From: a virus
Virus record (IMG/VR): IMGVR_UViG_3300020595_002556
Span: 1 to 40,991 of that record
DNA: 40,991 bases
Direction: 5' to 3' (one strand)
How positions within the stretch are numbered: position 1 is the stretch's first letter; every line of letters begins with the position of its first letter. Under the pieces are notes generated by a model. The model was not told the DNA's origin and did no database searches. It saw only the letters and a program-made list of their open reading frames with translations. The translations under genes and the position numbers were made by a program. Of the stretch, positions 9,973 through 18,283 are shown in pieces.

Positions 9973-10884
9973 TTACTGTCTTAAGGTTTTTTCAATTCTA
10001 TAATCTGTGTGTGTAAAAAAGTCTGGTATAAATCTTGAATGCGTAGCTCTAATTGGGTTAATATCTAAACCACCTCTCCTAGTATATAGACATGATACCA
10101 TTAAATCATCTGGTTGATAAGCATCCATTAGATGTTTAAATACCATTTCGCAAATTTCTTCATGAAAGTGACTAACAGTTCTATGTGATACTATATACTT
10201 AGCTAGTGAATCTACTGCAGGTAAATTTTTACTATTCATTCTTATAAATACATCCCCCCAATCAGGTTGATTAGTTACTCTACAATTAGATCTTAATAGG
10301 TTAGATTTAAGTTTTATTTCCTTAGGAGTTTCAGAGGTATCTTCAATTAGGAGTTGAGATGCATCAGACTCAAAAGCTGTAAAGTCTATTTGATCTAAAT
10401 CCACTATCTCACCTAAATCTGAATATCCTTCAAAAGATAATGCTTTACCGTCATCTATATCGCTATAAAAGCTTACAGTCGTACTTGTTTCTAGTAATTT
10501 ATCTAGATCTTCTTTAACCTTAGCTTCTATTACAGCCATGCAATCCGCAGAATTATCTCCTAATCTGGTCATATTAAAAGAATTTAAATACAACTTAATC
10601 GATTTAGATTCTACGTGATATTCAGAATCGGAAGGACAAACAATCTTCAACATTCCTGCTACAGGTTGTCCTTTAGATGTAATTGCTGATACTTCATAAC
10701 AGTTCCAAGTATCTACTCCTACGAAGCTCTTATCGGTTAACCCGTAACCTTCTCTATTCAAGTACCTTGGTACTTTAACTAATAGTTCAGGTGAGTAGGT
10801 ATCTTTATACCCATCTCCACCGACTTTACCTAAATGCTTTGATGCAATTTCTACTACTTCTTGATAATTTTTTACGTCTGCCAT
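9973..10884 (-). CDS. queF: QueF, NADPH-dependent preQ0 reductase
   Basis: A 303-residue, two-domain (long-form) QueF. It reduces the nitrile of 7-cyano-7-deazaguanine (preQ0) to the amine preQ1. Substrate-binding VESKSIKLYLNSF lies at 91-103, the catalytic RSNCRVTNQPDWGD at 198-211 (Cys201, Asp208), HEE at 241-243 and GGLDINPIR at 271-279. Length and motif order match the E. coli-type enzyme rather than the short unimodular form. It follows the thermonuclease by three bases and shares an operon with mgsA and the P-loop kinase. With FolE, QueD, QueE and QueC in the window, it sets the product at preQ1 rather than preQ0. Confidence 0.94.
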   Translation of the reverse strand: MADVKNYQEVVEIASKHLGKVGGDGYKDTYSPELLVKVPRYLNREGYGLTDKSFVGVDTWNCYEVSAITSKGQPVAGMLKIVCPSDSEYHVESKSIKLYLNSFNMTRLGDNSADCMAVIEAKVKEDLDKLLETSTTVSFYSDIDDGKALSFEGYSDLGEIVDLDQIDFTAFESDASQLLIEDTSETPKEIKLKSNLLRSNCRVTNQPDWGDVFIRMNSKNLPAVDSLAKYIVSHRTVSHFHEEICEMVFKHLMDAYQPDDLMVSCLYTRRGGLDINPIRATHSRFIPDFFTHTDYRIEKTLRQ

Positions 10885-10887
10885 AAT

Positions 10888-11253
10888 TTAATTTTTAAAT
10901 GTTTGTTTTTTTCCACCCTCATATATATAAGCGTGTCCGTTTTCGATTAGTAGTTTGTTTAAAGAGGTTTCTTCTCCTTTTATAAAAATTTCAGCAAGTA
11001 CTCTTCCATACTTACCTTTACCGTGCGACTGAATGATAAACTTACCATCATTCATCTCTAGATACTTTTTTGTAAATGCTGAGGCTTCTAAGCCTTTTGC
11101 TTTTTCTTGTAAATCTCTTGTTCTCTTTTCCCAAGTATCAACTCCTTTAAATCTTAACCTTGCTTTAACCCAAGTATCAAAACCTAAATCGATCATCACA
11201 TCTGCAGTGTCTCCGTCGACTACTCTTACTAATTTTGCTCCGTATCTATACAT
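10888..11253 (-). CDS. Staphylococcal nuclease-like (thermonuclease) protein
   Basis: A 121-residue SNase-fold nuclease. VVDGDTADVMIDLG near 10-23, ARLRFKGVDTWE near 31-42 (Arg and Glu of the active site), GKYGRVLAEI near 79-88 (second active Arg) and LLIENGHAYIY near 100-110 follow the family order. SNases are Ca-dependent and cleave DNA or RNA at phosphodiester bonds. There is no signal peptide, so it acts inside the cell, for example on host DNA. It overlaps mgsA by eight bases and precedes queF. The phage genome may be protected by its modified base, but that link is inference. Confidence 0.88.
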   Translation of the reverse strand: MYRYGAKLVRVVDGDTADVMIDLGFDTWVKARLRFKGVDTWEKRTRDLQEKAKGLEASAFTKKYLEMNDGKFIIQSHGKGKYGRVLAEIFIKGEETSLNKLLIENGHAYIYEGGKKQTFKN

Positions 11254-11623
11254 TTTTACTTTTAAAATATTTAATCATTATATGCCCACTTTTATAGTTC
11301 GTTGCCAATGGTACATTGTGTACGTCACATAACCTCATTAACATACTTATATCCACATCGTGAGGGTGTTTATCTAATGGGTCTCTAAAAAAGAGTACCC
11401 CATCTATTTCTCCACGAGTAACCATCGCTCCAATTTGAGCATCTCCACCTAAGGGTCCGCTTTGTACTAGTTCTACTTTTAAACCAGCATGTTGTATTCT
11501 AGTACCTGTAGTTCCTGTGCCTACTAAATCAACGTCTTTACGTTTGAAAAAATCCATACGTTTCATCACAAAAGCAACCATATCTGCTTTTTTTCCATCG
11601 TGTGCTATAAGTGCTAATTTCAT
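11246..11623 (-). CDS. mgsA: Methylglyoxal synthase
   Basis: A 125-residue enzyme of the MgsA family, which converts dihydroxyacetone phosphate to methylglyoxal and phosphate. Signature segments are LIAHDGKK (5-12), GTGTTGT (35-41), SGPLGGDAQIGAM (55-67), FFRDPLDKHPHDVD (78-91) and VPLATN (104-109). The residues that correspond to E. coli Asp71, Asp91, His98 and Asp101 are all present (Asp61, Asp81, His88, Asp91 here) at a constant offset. It is slightly shorter than the bacterial enzyme at the N-terminus. It overlaps the kinase gene by four bases and the nuclease gene by eight, so it is expressed with the nucleotide genes. A phage copy is unexpected; the role is open. Confidence 0.9.
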   Translation of the reverse strand: MKLALIAHDGKKADMVAFVMKRMDFFKRKDVDLVGTGTTGTRIQHAGLKVELVQSGPLGGDAQIGAMVTRGEIDGVLFFRDPLDKHPHDVDISMLMRLCDVHNVPLATNYKSGHIMIKYFKSKNV

Positions 11624-12138
11624 TTTATAAATTTCATTATTTGTTCTACTCTTTGCATAGGAGAACCAGTTATAGTTAGGTAAGGTTGACGTACTCGATC
11701 TAATACTGCTTTAAATTCTTCATCCACTTCCTTTCTCCATTCTTCACTAATACTTCTTACTCCATCATCTACTGAGTCAAATTCAATAGGGAAGTATATA
11801 TAATGAGTATATTCGTTTTTAACTCTATTCCAAGTATCTTCTATATAGTGAAACGTATGAGAAGTAACTCCTTTCATAAATTTAGTATAAACTACAACAT
11901 CCATATAACATCTATCTAATACTAAATTATAAGGTTGAAGTAACGCCTCTAGATGAAAACTACTAATAGCTAACTGAGTAGCACAGGTACCTTCTTCATT
12001 TATAGGAAATCCGTAACTACCTACAGTTCTAGTAGATTCATTAATAAATTCGTATTTAGGTAATTTATTTTTTAGTAATTCATATACAGTAGTCTTACCC
12101 GTACTACTTGCTCCAACTAATGCTATTCTTTTTATCAT
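11620..12138 (-). CDS. P-loop kinase, NadR/AAA_28-like
   Basis: A 172-residue ATPase with Walker A GASSTGKTT (9-17), an ExxR element (NESTRTVG near 34-41) and a lid region with DRCYMD near 74-79. This arrangement fits the AAA_28 group, which includes the ribosylnicotinamide-kinase domain of NadR. It could phosphorylate a nucleoside (for example a nicotinamide riboside or a deoxynucleoside); the substrate cannot be told from sequence. It is the first gene of an operon with mgsA, the nuclease and queF, under the promoter at 12155-12183. Confidence 0.78.
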   Translation of the reverse strand: MIKRIALVGASSTGKTTVYELLKNKLPKYEFINESTRTVGSYGFPINEEGTCATQLAISSFHLEALLQPYNLVLDRCYMDVVVYTKFMKGVTSHTFHYIEDTWNRVKNEYTHYIYFPIEFDSVDDGVRSISEEWRKEVDEEFKAVLDRVRQPYLTITGSPMQRVEQIMKFIK

Positions 12139-12154
12139 TTAAAACCTTTTATTT

Positions 12155-12183
12155 AATATAAGAAAAAAAATGTTATAAACCAA
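12155..12183 (-). promoter_or_regulatory. Early-type promoter of the kinase-mgsA-nuclease-queF operon
   Basis: Minus strand: TTGGTT, 17 bases, TATATT. It overlaps the 3' end of the formyltransferase gene. Confidence 0.75.
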
Positions 12184-12715
12184 ATACTTTCTTTAAAAAT
12201 ATAGTCCACATGTATAATGATCTATCTCTAAATACCTTCCACATTTCTTCTTCTGTAATCTTAAAAGCATTAAATCTTTCTTCTGCTATTATTTTACCTT
12301 CATCAACTCCTGCATCGACTATATGGAGCACACATCCCATAACTGGGTATTTTCCTTTAAATGCTCTAATCTGTGGGTCTTTACCTTTAAGTTCTGGGTA
12401 TTCCGTTATTAGTCCTGGGTGTCCGTTAAATATAGAAAACTTTTCGCATATTTCTTTCGGCATAATACGTAACCAGCCATGCAAGGTAATTATTGCTTCC
12501 GGAAAATACACTAATACTTCTTCATAATCTTCTAAAGTAGGTTTATTAGGTAACGTAAAGAAACCTTTTTCCACTATTCTAGGATCTATATCTCTTAGAC
12601 TTTCAGGTCTCTCGTTAGTATAAATTCTATCAGGCCATTTACCAAGTGACTTAGCTAAATCAGCTATTTCTCCTCCAGTCTGACTAAAGAATGCTATCCA
12701 GGGCTTAGTTACCAT
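12173..12715 (-). CDS. Formyltransferase of the PurN/Fmt family, candidate modifier of preQ1 in DNA
   Basis: A 180-residue protein with the folate-dependent formyltransferase core. NGHPGLI at 97-103 supplies the catalytic Asn97 and His99, and GCVLHIVDAGVDEGKII (127-143) supplies the Asp, matching the N-H-D triad of GAR transformylase. The first ~95 residues are a Rossmann-like half. Its ATG overlaps the dpdA stop by 11 bases, so the two are co-translated. I infer that it formylates the aminomethyl group of preQ1, free or in DNA. I recall a report of formylated preQ1 in a Flavobacterium phage with an enzyme named DpdN, but cannot verify it here. Purine synthesis is the alternative. Confidence 0.82.
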   Translation of the reverse strand: MVTKPWIAFFSQTGGEIADLAKSLGKWPDRIYTNERPESLRDIDPRIVEKGFFTLPNKPTLEDYEEVLVYFPEAIITLHGWLRIMPKEICEKFSIFNGHPGLITEYPELKGKDPQIRAFKGKYPVMGCVLHIVDAGVDEGKIIAEERFNAFKITEEEMWKVFRDRSLYMWTIFLKKVFGL

Positions 12716-13502
12716 TTGTAAACCATTTAAATTTTTGAATATTATTTAAGATTAAATTACTATCTTCTACTTTATAATTAATTAATTCAAATAACTTCTG
12801 TCTTTGTTTGTCCCATAATCCGTCTGTTTCGTATCTAATATTTAAAATACCATGAACAACTGGGTTTGATGTATCCAACGAATATATCCAATCGTAATCT
12901 GAGTTTTTATAGAAAGCAAATTCTTGAGGTAGTCCGCAACCTAATAGGTGATGAGGTTTATCTTTATTAATAACACCGTCTTTAAGTAAATCTCCTAGTA
13001 ACTTAACACGTCCTAGCATCCAACTAACGTACCTGTTAGGGTGAGGACAAGACTTAGTGTAATACGAATAATCAAATGATATAGCTATCATATCAACATC
13101 TGCTTCTTTATTCATATAGTTATAACAATCTACAATTTCATCATAAGTCTTACCTTGAATTACTCCGATTTTACCGCTTCCTTCATACCCTAATCCTTTA
13201 TTATTCCAATCCTCCATTTGTTTACAAGTTCTGTCAGCATCCTCTAAAGCATCCGGAACAATATACCAGGTAGGTTTAATATCTTTAACCCATTTGTCAA
13301 ACTTTATTGCATCAAATGCCTCTTCTAATTCAAATATAGAATTATCTAATATTACTTCTCGACCGTTTTTAATTGCAGCTCTAAATTGTTCAAGGTATTC
13401 TTTATCTTCTTCAAAAAGATGAACTAATGCATAATCATAATCTGTATGTTTCTGTACTTCGTTAAAAATACTTTTAGGACTTTCGTGTGCTATTTTTATC
13501 AT
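12705..13502 (-). CDS. dpdA: DpdA-like DNA-guanine transglycosylase (TGT superfamily)
   Basis: A 265-residue TIM-barrel protein related to tRNA-guanine transglycosylase. LDNSIFE (52-58) occupies the place of the DSGGFQ motif, followed by IVPDALEDADRT (81-92), IGVIQGKTYDE (112-122), HHLLGCGLP (184-192) and YSLDTSNPV (207-215), whose Asp210 fits the nucleophile position. The zinc site of tRNA-type TGT is not visible. In phages DpdA exchanges guanine in DNA for a 7-deazaguanine base. Its neighbours (FolE, MazG-like, formyltransferase) and the separate Que genes strongly support this over tRNA modification. It overlaps both the small gene upstream and the formyltransferase downstream. Confidence 0.85.
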   Translation of the reverse strand: MIKIAHESPKSIFNEVQKHTDYDYALVHLFEEDKEYLEQFRAAIKNGREVILDNSIFELEEAFDAIKFDKWVKDIKPTWYIVPDALEDADRTCKQMEDWNNKGLGYEGSGKIGVIQGKTYDEIVDCYNYMNKEADVDMIAISFDYSYYTKSCPHPNRYVSWMLGRVKLLGDLLKDGVINKDKPHHLLGCGLPQEFAFYKNSDYDWIYSLDTSNPVVHGILNIRYETDGLWDKQRQKLFELINYKVEDSNLILNNIQKFKWFTNGN

Positions 13503-13704
13503 TTAATTCTTCTAATGTTGGGTTTAAACTCGTTAATTCTACTGATAGGTTATTTATTGCTTCGTCTAAAGCATTTAATAATTCTTGTGAATCATCTTCG
13601 TATGCTTCTTGTACTGCTTGTACTGCTGTTGAAAAAGGTACCATATACATTTTATGTGTTTCAATATAAACTTTATGGTCTTCTAAATTAATTTTATTGC
13701 TCAT
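13474..13704 (-). CDS. Small protein of unknown function (76 aa)
   Basis: An acidic, helical protein (PFSTAVQAVQEAYEDDSQEL in the middle). It overlaps dpdA by 29 bases and the MazG-like gene by 11, so it is translated within the same operon and could be a partner of either. No motif or family is recognised. Confidence 0.6.
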   Translation of the reverse strand: MSNKINLEDHKVYIETHKMYMVPFSTAVQAVQEAYEDDSQELLNALDEAINNLSVELTSLNPTLEELNDKNSTRKS

Positions 13705-14218
13705 TGAAAAATTGTTTTAAGTTAGGTCTGTAGTAATTTATGCTTTTCATTACTTTTTTATCACGTGTTCTATAGACAACATAAGCATCTCCAACCCTTT
13801 CGTAGTGACACGGTTCCTTTTGCTCAGTTGCTCTAAGTTCCACAGTTTCTTGTGCTTCCTCTTCGCTTGAACAAGCCTTTGACATATTCGACCCTTGTAC
13901 TTCAAGATACGCTGGCCATATCTTATCTTTAAGACCGTGAAGCATAGTTCCGTTACCAAGCGAGACATAGGCAATGTCACATAAAGCATCAAGAACCTCA
14001 ACAATATCACCTGCTTCACAGGCAGCTTTGTATTCTTCAAGCTCTTCAAGGATGAAATCATATACAAATTGCCAATCTTTTTTCTCAGGTATGTTAGGTA
14101 CATAGTTATTAGGTTTACCAAATGTTTCGTTAAATTGTTCTACTTCCGATACAAACGGTACGTATGCATCAACTTTTTGACTATCTAGTTCTGGAAATAA
14201 TGATAATTGTTTGTTCAT
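13694..14218 (-). CDS. MazG-like nucleotide pyrophosphohydrolase
   Basis: A 174-residue protein. The helical ILEELEEYKAACEAGD (51-66) followed by EVLDALCDIAYVSLGNG (69-85) carries the EExxE...ExxD metal-binding pattern of the MazG/phosphoribosyl-ATP pyrophosphohydrolase superfamily, and the later EVQGSNMSKA is also typical of this phage subgroup. These enzymes hydrolyse NTPs or dNTPs to monophosphates. In an operon with FolE and DpdA it might clear a nucleotide pool, but the substrate is unknown. It follows folE by four bases. Confidence 0.82.
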   Translation of the reverse strand: MNKQLSLFPELDSQKVDAYVPFVSEVEQFNETFGKPNNYVPNIPEKKDWQFVYDFILEELEEYKAACEAGDIVEVLDALCDIAYVSLGNGTMLHGLKDKIWPAYLEVQGSNMSKACSSEEEAQETVELRATEQKEPCHYERVGDAYVVYRTRDKKVMKSINYYRPNLKQFFNEQ

Positions 14219-14222
14219 AATA

Positions 14223-14936
14223 TTAATGTTTACAAATTGATGCTAATTCTATATTCTTATAAAACTCTGCTTTTGCAGAATCTTCATTTAAAAATGCTCC
14301 TGTTAATTTTGCTGTTTGCATTGAAGCTCCTCTATGTTTTACTCCTCTACAGCTAACACAATTATGAGTAGCTGATATCATTACTGCAACTCCTAAATTA
14401 CCTTCACATATCTTATCTACTGCATTATGAATAGCTACAGTTAATTGCTCTTGAATAGCTCCTCTTCTACCGAATTGTTCTACTATTCTATTGAGCTTAG
14501 ATAGTCCAACTACTTTGCCATCTTCAGATGCAATATAAGCTATACTTACATTACCTCCAATTGTTTGATGGTGATGTGAACACATAGACTGTACAGGTAT
14601 ATTACTCTCTTGTACAATTCCATCATATCCGTCTGAAGGAAATGCTGTTATTCTATCTAAAGGGTTGTATCTTCCTGCCCATAAATCGTTAACATACGCT
14701 TTGGCTACTCTCATTGGTGTATCTGAAGAGTTAGGATCTTCTTTATAGTCACATCCTAATGCAGTTAAAAAATCTGCATAAGCCTTTGCTGCTCTTTCTA
14801 TAATTACTTTCTTTTCATGTTCAGTTAACCTAGCTTCAGGTCCTTCTAATTCTTGCTTTGCAGCTAGTTGACTTGATATACCATTTGCATACCCTGCTTT
14901 TACTAATTCTGTTCCGTCTATAAACTTTTTAGGCAT
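14223..14936 (-). CDS. folE: GTP cyclohydrolase I
   Basis: A 237-residue FolE that opens GTP to dihydroneopterin triphosphate, the first step of both folate and 7-deazaguanine synthesis. Zinc ligands are visible as CSHHH (119-123; Cys119, His122) and HNCVSCRG (191-198; Cys193). GLSKLNRIVE (144-153) and RRGAIQEQL (157-165) are the other family signatures. The N-terminal 40 residues are helical, as in the bacterial enzyme. It heads the operon folE, mazG-like, orf, dpdA, formyltransferase, with an early-type promoter at 14984-15012. Grouping with dpdA points to DNA modification. Confidence 0.95.
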   Translation of the reverse strand: MPKKFIDGTELVKAGYANGISSQLAAKQELEGPEARLTEHEKKVIIERAAKAYADFLTALGCDYKEDPNSSDTPMRVAKAYVNDLWAGRYNPLDRITAFPSDGYDGIVQESNIPVQSMCSHHHQTIGGNVSIAYIASEDGKVVGLSKLNRIVEQFGRRGAIQEQLTVAIHNAVDKICEGNLGVAVMISATHNCVSCRGVKHRGASMQTAKLTGAFLNEDSAKAEFYKNIELASICKH

Positions 14937-15569: not shown

Positions 15570-15696
15570 TTTCTATATAACTTTTTAATTTATCTATTAA
15601 TACTAGTACTTCGTCTGGTTCCATTGTTATAGCACAACAAGTATTTATATTTTCTGCTACTTCTTCTAATACCTCTAAAGCTTCATCTTTAGTCAT
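15562..15696 (-). CDS. Very small acidic protein (44 aa)
   Basis: An ATG at 15696, sharing one base with the queE stop codon (TAATG), opens an acidic 44-residue frame (MTKDEALEVLEEVAENINT at its start, one CC pair). The exact coupling with queE and the overlap with the next gene support it. No family is recognised. Confidence 0.55.
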   Translation of the reverse strand: MTKDEALEVLEEVAENINTCCAITMEPDEVLVLIDKLKSYIENE

Positions 15697-16484
15697 TATA
15701 CCTCTCTTTGGTCTTCAAAAGCAATAATATGAGGTCTCCAAGTCATTCTATAACCATTATCTCTAACCCAATCAAATACTAAAGGGTAAGACTTAAATAA
15801 TCCTTCTCTTGAATCGCCAGCAGGCATAAACCATACCTTATCTTGAGGTACATCTAGCAATTTAATACAGTTTAGTATCTCTTCTAAAGCACCTTTATCT
15901 CTACCGTCCCATACAGGTTTAATGTGATAGTCTGAATGATAAGCAATGGATTTAGAAATGGCATCATAATTAAGTCTAAACTTATTATGACGTTTTACCA
16001 TTCTTTCGTCGGTAATGGATCCTTGAGGAGTTTCAACACCAACAACGGGGACACTATTACTAAACTTAGGACTAATGCTAAGCAAATTAATAGGATAATC
16101 GGTAGGAAGAAAATGAGATCCCTCAGTTTCAATAGTAATGAATATATTGTTTTCATGTGCAAAGTGTGTTAGTTCGTTTACTAAAGCTGGATGCATTGTC
16201 GGTGAACCACCTGTCAACATCATTTCCTTTATATGAGGATTATCTTCATATGCCTTAATAATATCTTTGAAATTAAAATGACCTTTTTCCGGATGAATAC
16301 TTGTATACCAACTATCACACCATCCTCCTTCACCAAAGTAACATCTATGTGTACATCCTGTAGTTCTAACTACTACTGTAGGATACCCTGCTCTTGAACC
16401 TTCTGATTGTACTGCAGTATATATCTCTACAATAGGTAAGTTTTTATCGTAATCCTCTATTCTTTTTAGTTTCTTATCCAACAT
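15696..16484 (-). CDS. queE: QueE, 7-carboxy-7-deazaguanine synthase (radical SAM)
   Basis: A 262-residue radical SAM enzyme that contracts 6-carboxytetrahydropterin to 7-carboxy-7-deazaguanine. The N-terminal PIVEIYTAVQSEGSRAGYP (17-35) is typical of QueE. The cluster cysteines are Cys44, Cys48 and Cys56: spacing C-x3-C-x7-C instead of the usual C-x3-C-x2-C, with YFGEGG looking like an insert before WCD. MLTGGSPTMHP (92-102) replaces the usual TGGEP. It overlaps queD by 11 bases, so product and substrate enzymes are coupled. Cluster-spacing variants are known in QueE families. Confidence 0.92.
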   Translation of the reverse strand: MLDKKLKRIEDYDKNLPIVEIYTAVQSEGSRAGYPTVVVRTTGCTHRCYFGEGGWCDSWYTSIHPEKGHFNFKDIIKAYEDNPHIKEMMLTGGSPTMHPALVNELTHFAHENNIFITIETEGSHFLPTDYPINLLSISPKFSNSVPVVGVETPQGSITDERMVKRHNKFRLNYDAISKSIAYHSDYHIKPVWDGRDKGALEEILNCIKLLDVPQDKVWFMPAGDSREGLFKSYPLVFDWVRDNGYRMTWRPHIIAFEDQREV

Positions 16485-16938
16485 AATACGCTGCGTTTTT
16501 ACCGTGTTCCATAAATTTTACTTTTACAACTTTAACTCTACCTTCTGTCTCTTTAACAACAAATTCATTTATTTTGTTAAAGATATATTCTGCAAATTTC
16601 TCTGCTCCGGTAGCTGGAATTACTCTTACCTGGGCAACTCCTGCTTCTGCCATTCTCTTAAAAGATTCTAAGAATGGATCATCTGCTGCTACTATAAAGG
16701 TGTGATCAAACATAAAATCCATCCACTCTTTAGGAGATTTACCATCTATTAGAGTTTTTGCTCTTTTCATTCCTCCGAAATCCCATACCCAATTTCTTTC
16801 ATCTAACTCACCTTCAAAATATACTTTAAATGATATCCCGTACCCGTGTAAGAATCTACAGTGTGTGTTTTCTGCTGAATGTTGACGAAACACTGTACTA
16901 AATCCGTCAAAAACTTTACTTGATTGAAATTTTCCCAT
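16474..16938 (-). CDS. queD: QueD, 6-carboxytetrahydropterin synthase
   Basis: A 154-residue member of the PTPS/QueD T-fold family, which converts dihydroneopterin triphosphate to 6-carboxytetrahydropterin. FRQHSAENTHCRFLHGYG (17-34) holds zinc-ligand candidates His20 and His31 and the catalytic Cys27. The third zinc histidine (HGH in E. coli QueD) is Tyr33 here. WDFGGMKRA, FDHTF and GAEKFAEYI follow in the family order. It is the second gene of the operon with a small membrane protein upstream and queE downstream. Confidence 0.9.
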   Translation of the reverse strand: MGKFQSSKVFDGFSTVFRQHSAENTHCRFLHGYGISFKVYFEGELDERNWVWDFGGMKRAKTLIDGKSPKEWMDFMFDHTFIVAADDPFLESFKRMAEAGVAQVRVIPATGAEKFAEYIFNKINEFVVKETEGRVKVVKVKFMEHGKNAAYYVG

Positions 16939-17226: not shown

Positions 17227-17245
17227 CTTTTATTCATATTTGTTG

Positions 17246-17319
17246 TGGAGAATATCGGAGTCGAACCGATGACCTCCTGCGTGCAAGGCAGGCGCTCTAG
17301 CCAGCTGAGCTAATTCCCC
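17246..17319 (-). tRNA. tRNA-Ala (anticodon TGC)
   Basis: A complete cloverleaf on the minus strand. The acceptor stem GGGGAAT pairs with ATTCTCC (one G-T), followed by discriminator A. The D arm is AGCTCAGCTGGCTAGAGC, the anticodon stem CCTGC/GCAGG encloses CTTGCAC with anticodon TGC, and the T arm carries GGTTCGACTCC. The 3' CCA is not encoded. It is the only tRNA gene in the window and lies between queC's small partner gene and the queD promoter. Confidence 0.96.
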
Positions 17320-17494: not shown

Positions 17495-18283
17495 TTATAA
17501 ATATGATGATAAAACGTTTTCAACGTGCTTTCTAGCAACTTCGTATCCAACTTCTCCTGTTTCATCTTCGTATTGTACTGGATCAGGTCTCCCTAATGCA
17601 ATAAATGCTTCAATTCTTTCTACTGAAGAAGCTGATTTATAGTCTGAATTACCGCTTGGGTAGGGTTTATAAGAAGTGTTAGTTCTTTTGTAAACTTCAT
17701 CAAAATCTAAATCTAAAACCTCACATAAATTTAATCCGTCTTGTAGAATACCGAACTTATCGGTATTTAAATAAGGTGTAAAATAACCTACTCTATCCGC
17801 ATCCCAATTTCCCATTCTAAAAGCTGCATCATCTGCATCTCTAAATTCTTGTCTGCAATCAGGATAAACAGCATGATCACCAGCATGAATTCCTAAAGCA
17901 ATATCACAAACATCTTCTTTTTTATTTGCTATAGATAAAGCTACTGCTTGAGTAATAGAAGCAAACATTTTGTTTCTGTTAGGAACAACAGTTTCTTTCA
18001 TATTATCTTGTTCATAATGCCCTTCAGGTACATCATCTCCACCTTCTACTAATGCAGAATCTAGTAAATCTACTAATCCATCTAGTTTAATTTGACGATA
18101 ATTTACTTTGTGACCTTTACTTGCAAGGTAATCAATTAATGATTGAGCTCTTTCAAGTTCAACTCTATGTTTTTGACCGTAGTCAAATGAGATACCTGTT
18201 ACTGTATCATACTCTTCAATAGCTCTTAACAATAGGGTGCTGCTATCCATTCCACCGCTTAAACTAACTACACAATGTGCCAT
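17495..18283 (-). CDS. queC: QueC-like preQ0 synthase lacking the zinc cysteines
   Basis: A 262-residue adenine-nucleotide hydrolase-fold enzyme that should convert 7-carboxy-7-deazaguanine to preQ0 using ATP and ammonia. The PP-loop SGGMDSS (9-15), DYGQKH (34-39), VVPNRNKMFASI (99-110) and LGIHAGDHAVYPDCR (130-144) are intact. In normal QueC the C-terminal part has four zinc cysteines. Aligning TNTSYKPYPSGN...VERIEAF (201-227) without gaps to the E. coli segment places Ser204, Asp214, Ser217 and Ser220 at those positions, so none remains. Function is probably kept through other contacts, but a changed reaction is possible. Confidence 0.9.
   Translation of the reverse strand: MAHCVVSLSGGMDSSTLLLRAIEEYDTVTGISFDYGQKHRVELERAQSLIDYLASKGHKVNYRQIKLDGLVDLLDSALVEGGDDVPEGHYEQDNMKETVVPNRNKMFASITQAVALSIANKKEDVCDIALGIHAGDHAVYPDCRQEFRDADDAAFRMGNWDADRVGYFTPYLNTDKFGILQDGLNLCEVLDLDFDEVYKRTNTSYKPYPSGNSDYKSASSVERIEAFIALGRPDPVQYEDETGEVGYEVARKHVENVLSSYL

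Follow-up and report, generated by a model that had tools for sequence, protein, structure and literature searches.

The window, a 40,991-nt stretch of viral DNA, raises the question of what a formyltransferase gene is doing directly beside dpdA. The first-pass annotation had read the gene as encoding a formyltransferase of preQ1, acting before or after insertion of the base into DNA. Cui and colleagues are said to have described, in 2023, DpdN and fdPreQ1 in a Flavobacterium phage. We take the formyltransferase gene of Flavobacterium phage immuto (vB_FspM_immuto) to be the DpdN gene of that fdPreQ1 system. The gene in the window (12173-12715, minus strand) starts with ATG and encodes 180 amino acids. 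Its product matched Pfam Formyl_trans_N (PF00551) with an E value of 2.7e-9 and 37.5 bits against a cut-off of 26.1. The residues N97, H99 and D138 were invariant in an alignment of 65/65 diverse homologues, a set drawn from contigs of viruses and from two bacterial MAGs. Their aligned counterparts in E. coli PurN, for which a reference identical to PDB 1c2t was used, are N106, H108 and D144. An AlphaFold2 model built on the 65 homologues reached a mean pLDDT of 94.7. The best structural match of this model was PurN 4s1n (Z 21.2, rmsd 2.0 over 168 residues), with superposition over the full length. The extra C-terminal domain of the longer Fmt/ArnA enzymes was absent from the model. Thus the earlier description of a 180-residue formyltransferase with a complete Asn-His-Asp triad and a PurN-like fold was confirmed.

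The dpdN-like reading frame overlaps dpdA (12705-13502, ending at 12705) by 11 nt, as had been stated. The wording that the two are "fused by overlap" was too loose, since the genes overlap but encode separate proteins. An overlap was likewise found in the near relatives L006, L008 and L009. Instead of an overlap, L012, L014 and L016 have a gap of about 168 bp, and in immuto a small ORF separates the two genes. In the first locus set, every locus carrying both genes (153/153) had dpdN in the same orientation as dpdA and downstream of it, at a distance below 1 kb. It is the adjacency, not the overlap itself, that is conserved.

One explanation for the gene would be an auxiliary PurN, a GAR transformylase boosting purine synthesis. 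PurN proteins are the closest solved structures and share the fold and the triad with the window protein, the immuto homologue is named "phosphoribosylglycinamide formyltransferase" in GenBank, and PurN-like genes are carried by cyanophages. However, the PurN equivalog TIGR00639 (NCBIfam) gave 43.5 bits, below its cut-off of 150.1, and PurN-specific residues are replaced. All 17 PurN sequences (17/17) have Asn at the position of E. coli N13, where 64/65 DpdN relatives have Glu. At the position of E173, Glu is kept in 17/17 PurN sequences, and most of the relatives have a hydrophobic residue or Thr. We take N13, in the GAR-site phosphate loop, and E173 to be GAR contacts. Furthermore, Ala86 of PurN is replaced by His in 62/65 relatives and Phe88 by Trp in 54/65. 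With these four positions replaced and the triad kept, the donor side and catalysis are probably retained, and the acceptor site is probably different. The genomic context also spoke against PurN. Wherever a sampled viral locus had enough flanking sequence, it carried QueF and nearly always DpdA, and other purine-synthesis genes were not seen there. Judged by its sequence, the protein is not PurN, and we regard the auxiliary PurN explanation as highly improbable.

A candidate acceptor is supplied by the neighboring genes, all on the minus strand. FolE (GTP cyclohydrolase I, 14223-14936; Pfam 2.3e-42), QueE (7-carboxy-7-deazaguanine synthase, 15696-16484; phrog_2076 1.1e-51, Pfam Radical_SAM), QueD (16474-16938; Pfam PTPS 9.6e-15, phrog_2389 3.3e-39) and QueC (17495-18283; Pfam QueC 2e-37) were identified. 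A bimodular QueF, the nitrile reductase converting preQ0 to preQ1, lies at 9973-10884 (QueF_N 1e-28, QueF 3.8e-17 in Pfam); the first-pass annotation had given it no emphasis. It contains VESKSIKLY, with the motif ESKSIKLY, and SNCRVTNQPDWGD, with the catalytic Cys/Asp region SNC...QPDWG. In QueF, SNC...QPDWG is the catalytic motif and ESKSIKLY the NADPH motif. TIGR03138 scored 238.5 bits, under its cut-off of 293.45, as for a clear homologue of divergent phage form. Since FolE, QueD, QueE and QueC are present together with a QueF that has both its catalytic and its NADPH motif, the phage should be able to make preQ1. This is an amine as needed by a formyltransferase, so that the pathway supplies the putative substrate.

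The DpdA homologue (12705-13502, minus strand, 265 amino acids) was assigned by homology to phage genes. Over its full length it is 75% identical to the immuto protein annotated as "DNA guanine transglycosylase" and 42% identical to the product of the gene adjoining a kinase in Campylobacter phage CP220. We assume that the subfamily name DpdA3 applies to the window, immuto and Campylobacter proteins. No TGT match was obtained with Pfam, and a DpdA3 profile search against the PDB gave no matches. Comparison with the TGT profile by hhalign was weak (P 7e-4, probability 26%), with QG, LLGC and D210 in register. Neither isoelectric point nor net charge, considered as clues to DNA binding, was informative: with -10, DpdA3 cannot be told apart from DpdA1 and DpdA2 (-8, -10). 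PADLOC returned nothing for DpdN or DpdA.

The closest known system is that of immuto. Its gene order is the same, and its formyltransferase lies beside annotated DpdA and QueF. The proteins are 50% (formyltransferase, over 97%), 75% (DpdA), 66% (kinase), 62% (QueF), 77% (FolE) and 84% (QueE) identical to those of the window. The two differ in the small ORF of immuto between dpdA and dpdN, and in the methylglyoxal synthase and nuclease genes that precede queF in the window. A search of 50,697 phage records found full-length close homologues of DpdN only in the four records of Flavobacterium phage immuto, at 50% identity, and divergent DpdN queries added just weak, PurN-like matches. In IMG/VR the family was common: pattern scans confirmed 372 DpdN candidates in one scan and at least 562 in a second.

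The composition of the module was counted over 134 DpdA loci, all distinct and with 4.5 kb or more of downstream sequence. DpdN, kinase and QueF occurred together in 83/134 loci, kinase and QueF without DpdN in 40/134, and DpdN and QueF without kinase in 4/134; the remaining loci were of rare types. More than 80 distinct viral loci thus carry a module made up of dpdA, dpdN, queF and the gene of a NadR/TMPK-like kinase. The cluster is kept under rearrangement. In L301 the four genes are grouped in a different order, and in L243 and L245 dpdN, kinase and queF are still together, at a distance of several kb from dpdA. Viral loci that seemed to have DpdN without QueF carried QueF elsewhere on the same contig. 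DpdN is therefore optional in the preQ1 module and was seen in no virus lacking QueF, which fits an action of DpdN on preQ1. Two bacterial contigs also carry DpdN-like genes. One, a Microcoleus MAG contig (L326 7998-8537), lacks the kinase; the other, a partial Clostridiales MAG contig (L327 1606-2193), has an adjacent DpdA, no kinase and no detected QueF, which speaks against the preQ1 reading.

The same linkage bears on a formyltransferase for some other amine, such as an amino sugar nucleotide or a modified base other than preQ1, placed in the cluster by chance. The superfamily has many substrates, and sugar N-formyltransferases are among the structural matches. Against this, the linkage to QueF and DpdA is conserved across diverged phages and gene orders, and no further amine-making gene was recognised in the module. 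Moreover, an acetyltransferase substitutes for DpdN in the same module. In L144 and L146, dpdA, kinase and queF are present and dpdN is absent from the available 27-31 kb. Their kinases (L144 6123-7079; L146 10331-11287) are fused to a C-terminal domain that matches GNAT acetyltransferases. For L146 the scores were 28.1 bits against 23.6 for Acetyltransf_10 and 27.4 against 27 for Acetyltransf_7; those of L144 were weaker. The two fusions are 78% identical and thus represent one lineage. A formyltransferase for another amine is in our view improbable.

The simplest reading of the GNAT domain in place of DpdN suggests that an N-acetyl cap would replace the N-formyl cap, giving acetyl-preQ1. We know of no report of acetyl-preQ1 as a DNA base. 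From the exchange, a second N-acylated form of preQ1 would be expected in DNA. The exchange also points independently to acylation of the preQ1 aminomethyl group.

The sequence and the model show the genes and their order, the active sites, the fold, the conservation and the linkage. Based on these observations we propose the following chemistry, in which substrate, donor and product are deduced. GTP would be converted to preQ0 by FolE, QueD, QueE and QueC, and preQ0 to preQ1 by QueF. DpdN would then move the formyl group of 10-formyl-tetrahydrofolate to the aminomethyl nitrogen of preQ1, using its Asn-His-Asp triad as in PurN. DpdA3 would exchange guanine for the formylated base, so that the genome would contain 7-(formylaminomethyl)-7-deazaguanine (fdPreQ1), whose probable role would be to protect it from restriction. 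As a whole, synthesis of preQ1, formylation by DpdN and insertion as fdPreQ1 by DpdA3 is the best explanation, and we hold it with good confidence. The chemical part, formyl-preQ1 made by a DpdN-type enzyme, we consider very probable. Most likely, then, 12173-12715 encodes a DpdN making formyl-preQ1 in an essentially already known system. The first-pass reading of preQ1-type formylation is supported by gene context, active site, loss of PurN residues, linkage to QueF and DpdA3 and 50% identity to the immuto homologue. Three points go, to our knowledge, beyond what has been described: how widespread the module is, the exchange of DpdN for a GNAT domain, and the regular pairing of DpdA3 with a kinase. 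A formyl-preQ1 system known to us from one isolated phage appears as a widespread viral module with comparable parts.

The kinase bears on the step at which the base is formylated. The gene (11620-12138, minus strand) encodes a P-loop nucleoside or nucleotide kinase (Pfam AAA_28; NadR/TMPK/dGK-like). Its profile matched NadR ribosylnicotinamide kinase in the PDB with 5.6e-8, as well as thymidylate kinase and deoxyguanosine kinase. A kinase gene adjoins dpdA in nearly all DpdA3 loci, and a small P-loop neighbor was found in every DpdA3 lineage tested. In Campylobacter phage CP220 an AAA_28 kinase gene follows the DpdA3-type gene. CP220 and CPt10 share this pair with the window, but the searches made for Campylobacter DpdA3 phages detected neither QueF nor DpdN. 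Small P-loop proteins, here of other P-loop families, are also encoded directly upstream of the remote DpdA3 homologues of Cellulophaga phiST, Chryseobacterium MA9V-3, Bacillus BSTP12 and Weizmannia Youna2. Remote loci with such a preceding kinase-like gene are L382 (5499-6759), L383 (4357-5705), L384 (5507-6774) and L385 (3387-4705). The phiST protein, whose Walker A motif is a variant one, was identified through Pfam AAA_18. For the Bacillus and Weizmannia neighbors, identification was solely through the Walker A motif and low profile scores. Overall, the partner kinases belong to at least three P-loop families. The DpdA homologue BSTP12_038 carries the GenBank label "NadR".

DpdA1 (phage 9g) and DpdA2 (phage nt-1) are 7-deazaguanine transglycosylases accompanied by preQ0 genes, as in the window, but they lack an adjoining P-loop kinase. 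Within 2.5 kb of DpdA1 or DpdA2, 0/12 loci had one, apart from one chance antisense frame. Seven loci with dpdA, dpdN and queF had no adjacent kinase (L271, L272, L295, L302, L303, L306 and L281), all on fragments of 4.7-15 kb. They are the chief exceptions to the pairing of DpdA3 and kinase, and they amount to four distinct ones among the 134 loci counted. In Streptomyces phages the kinase homologue adjoins a methyltransferase, and no annotated DpdA was found nearby.

The timing of the reaction and the role of the kinase are deduced from this association. Exchange would be slightly likelier at the level of a nucleotide such as dGMP; the adjoining kinase would then phosphorylate this nucleotide for the polymerase, and formylation would precede DNA synthesis. 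The pairing makes action before insertion somewhat more likely, and we lean slightly towards formylation prior to incorporation. The kinase fits, and as association evidence from lineages that are partly non-independent favours, a nucleotide route of base exchange on a guanine nucleotide, phosphorylation and polymerization. The same chemistry could alternatively proceed in finished DNA, where DpdA3 would put in preQ1 and DpdN would formylate the resulting dPreQ1. Cui and colleagues reportedly concluded that DpdA insertion is post-replicative, and the name "dPreQ1 formyltransferase" agrees with this. The TGT-like active-site motifs of DpdA3 fit such an order, and DpdA1/2 phages without kinase also carry 7-deazaguanines (PMC6884629). 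The post-replicative order is less easily reconciled with the constant pairing of DpdA3 with small-molecule-type kinases of several families that are absent beside DpdA1/2. Likewise, DpdN consists of the catalytic domain only, matches PurN over its full length and has no Fmt-type extra C-terminal part. Finally, in CP220 and CPt10, carriers of DpdA3 and kinase, replacement is complete, with 100% of dG replaced by dADG (PMC8306585). In nt-1 and relatives, replacement was low or partial where measured (PMC6884629, PMC8306585). We judge the post-replicative order to fall a little short of an even chance.

A modified-dGTP route has been mentioned as proposed for Campylobacter phages (Hutinet et al. 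2019, PMC6884629). As a tentative generalization, which we place somewhat below an even chance, DpdA3 modules might build 7-deazaguanine deoxynucleotides before replication. The base would be exchanged on the nucleotide, capped by an N-acyl group (formyl by DpdN, acetyl by GNAT) and phosphorylated by the kinase to a polymerase substrate. If true, this would account for the complete replacement of G. With DpdA3 and a kinase regularly paired, the route to full guanine replacement, DNA-level exchange or modified dNTP, becomes directly testable. An adjacent DNA polymerase gene was dropped as an argument for the nucleotide route, as DpdA1 loci have one too.

Several further features of the loci were recorded. 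A MazG-like nucleotide pyrophosphohydrolase gene lies upstream of dpdA (13694-14218, minus strand; Pfam PRA-PH 1.1e-9, phrog_671). It was rejected as a universal module partner, being frequent but undetected in most loci without DpdN. A methylglyoxal synthase-like gene (11246-11623, minus strand; NCBIfam NF003559, 156.3 bits against a cut-off of 84) lies between kinase and queF. Among the listed loci, this arrangement was found in the window and in L017 (from about 12208) only. A tRNA-Ala (tgc) gene (17245-17319, minus strand) lies between the queD and queC regions. In L258 (6815-7786), L273 (2334-3239) and L311 (2203-3126), DpdN carries a conserved extension at its C-terminus, about 130-146 residues long, with the motif QFDYGPGNISxGQD. 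No Pfam match was found for this extension, and its identification as DUF1599 was unsupported by the Pfam search. Between the window and L006, DpdN is 94% identical and the overlapping DpdA just 83%, which suggests recombination at gene borders.
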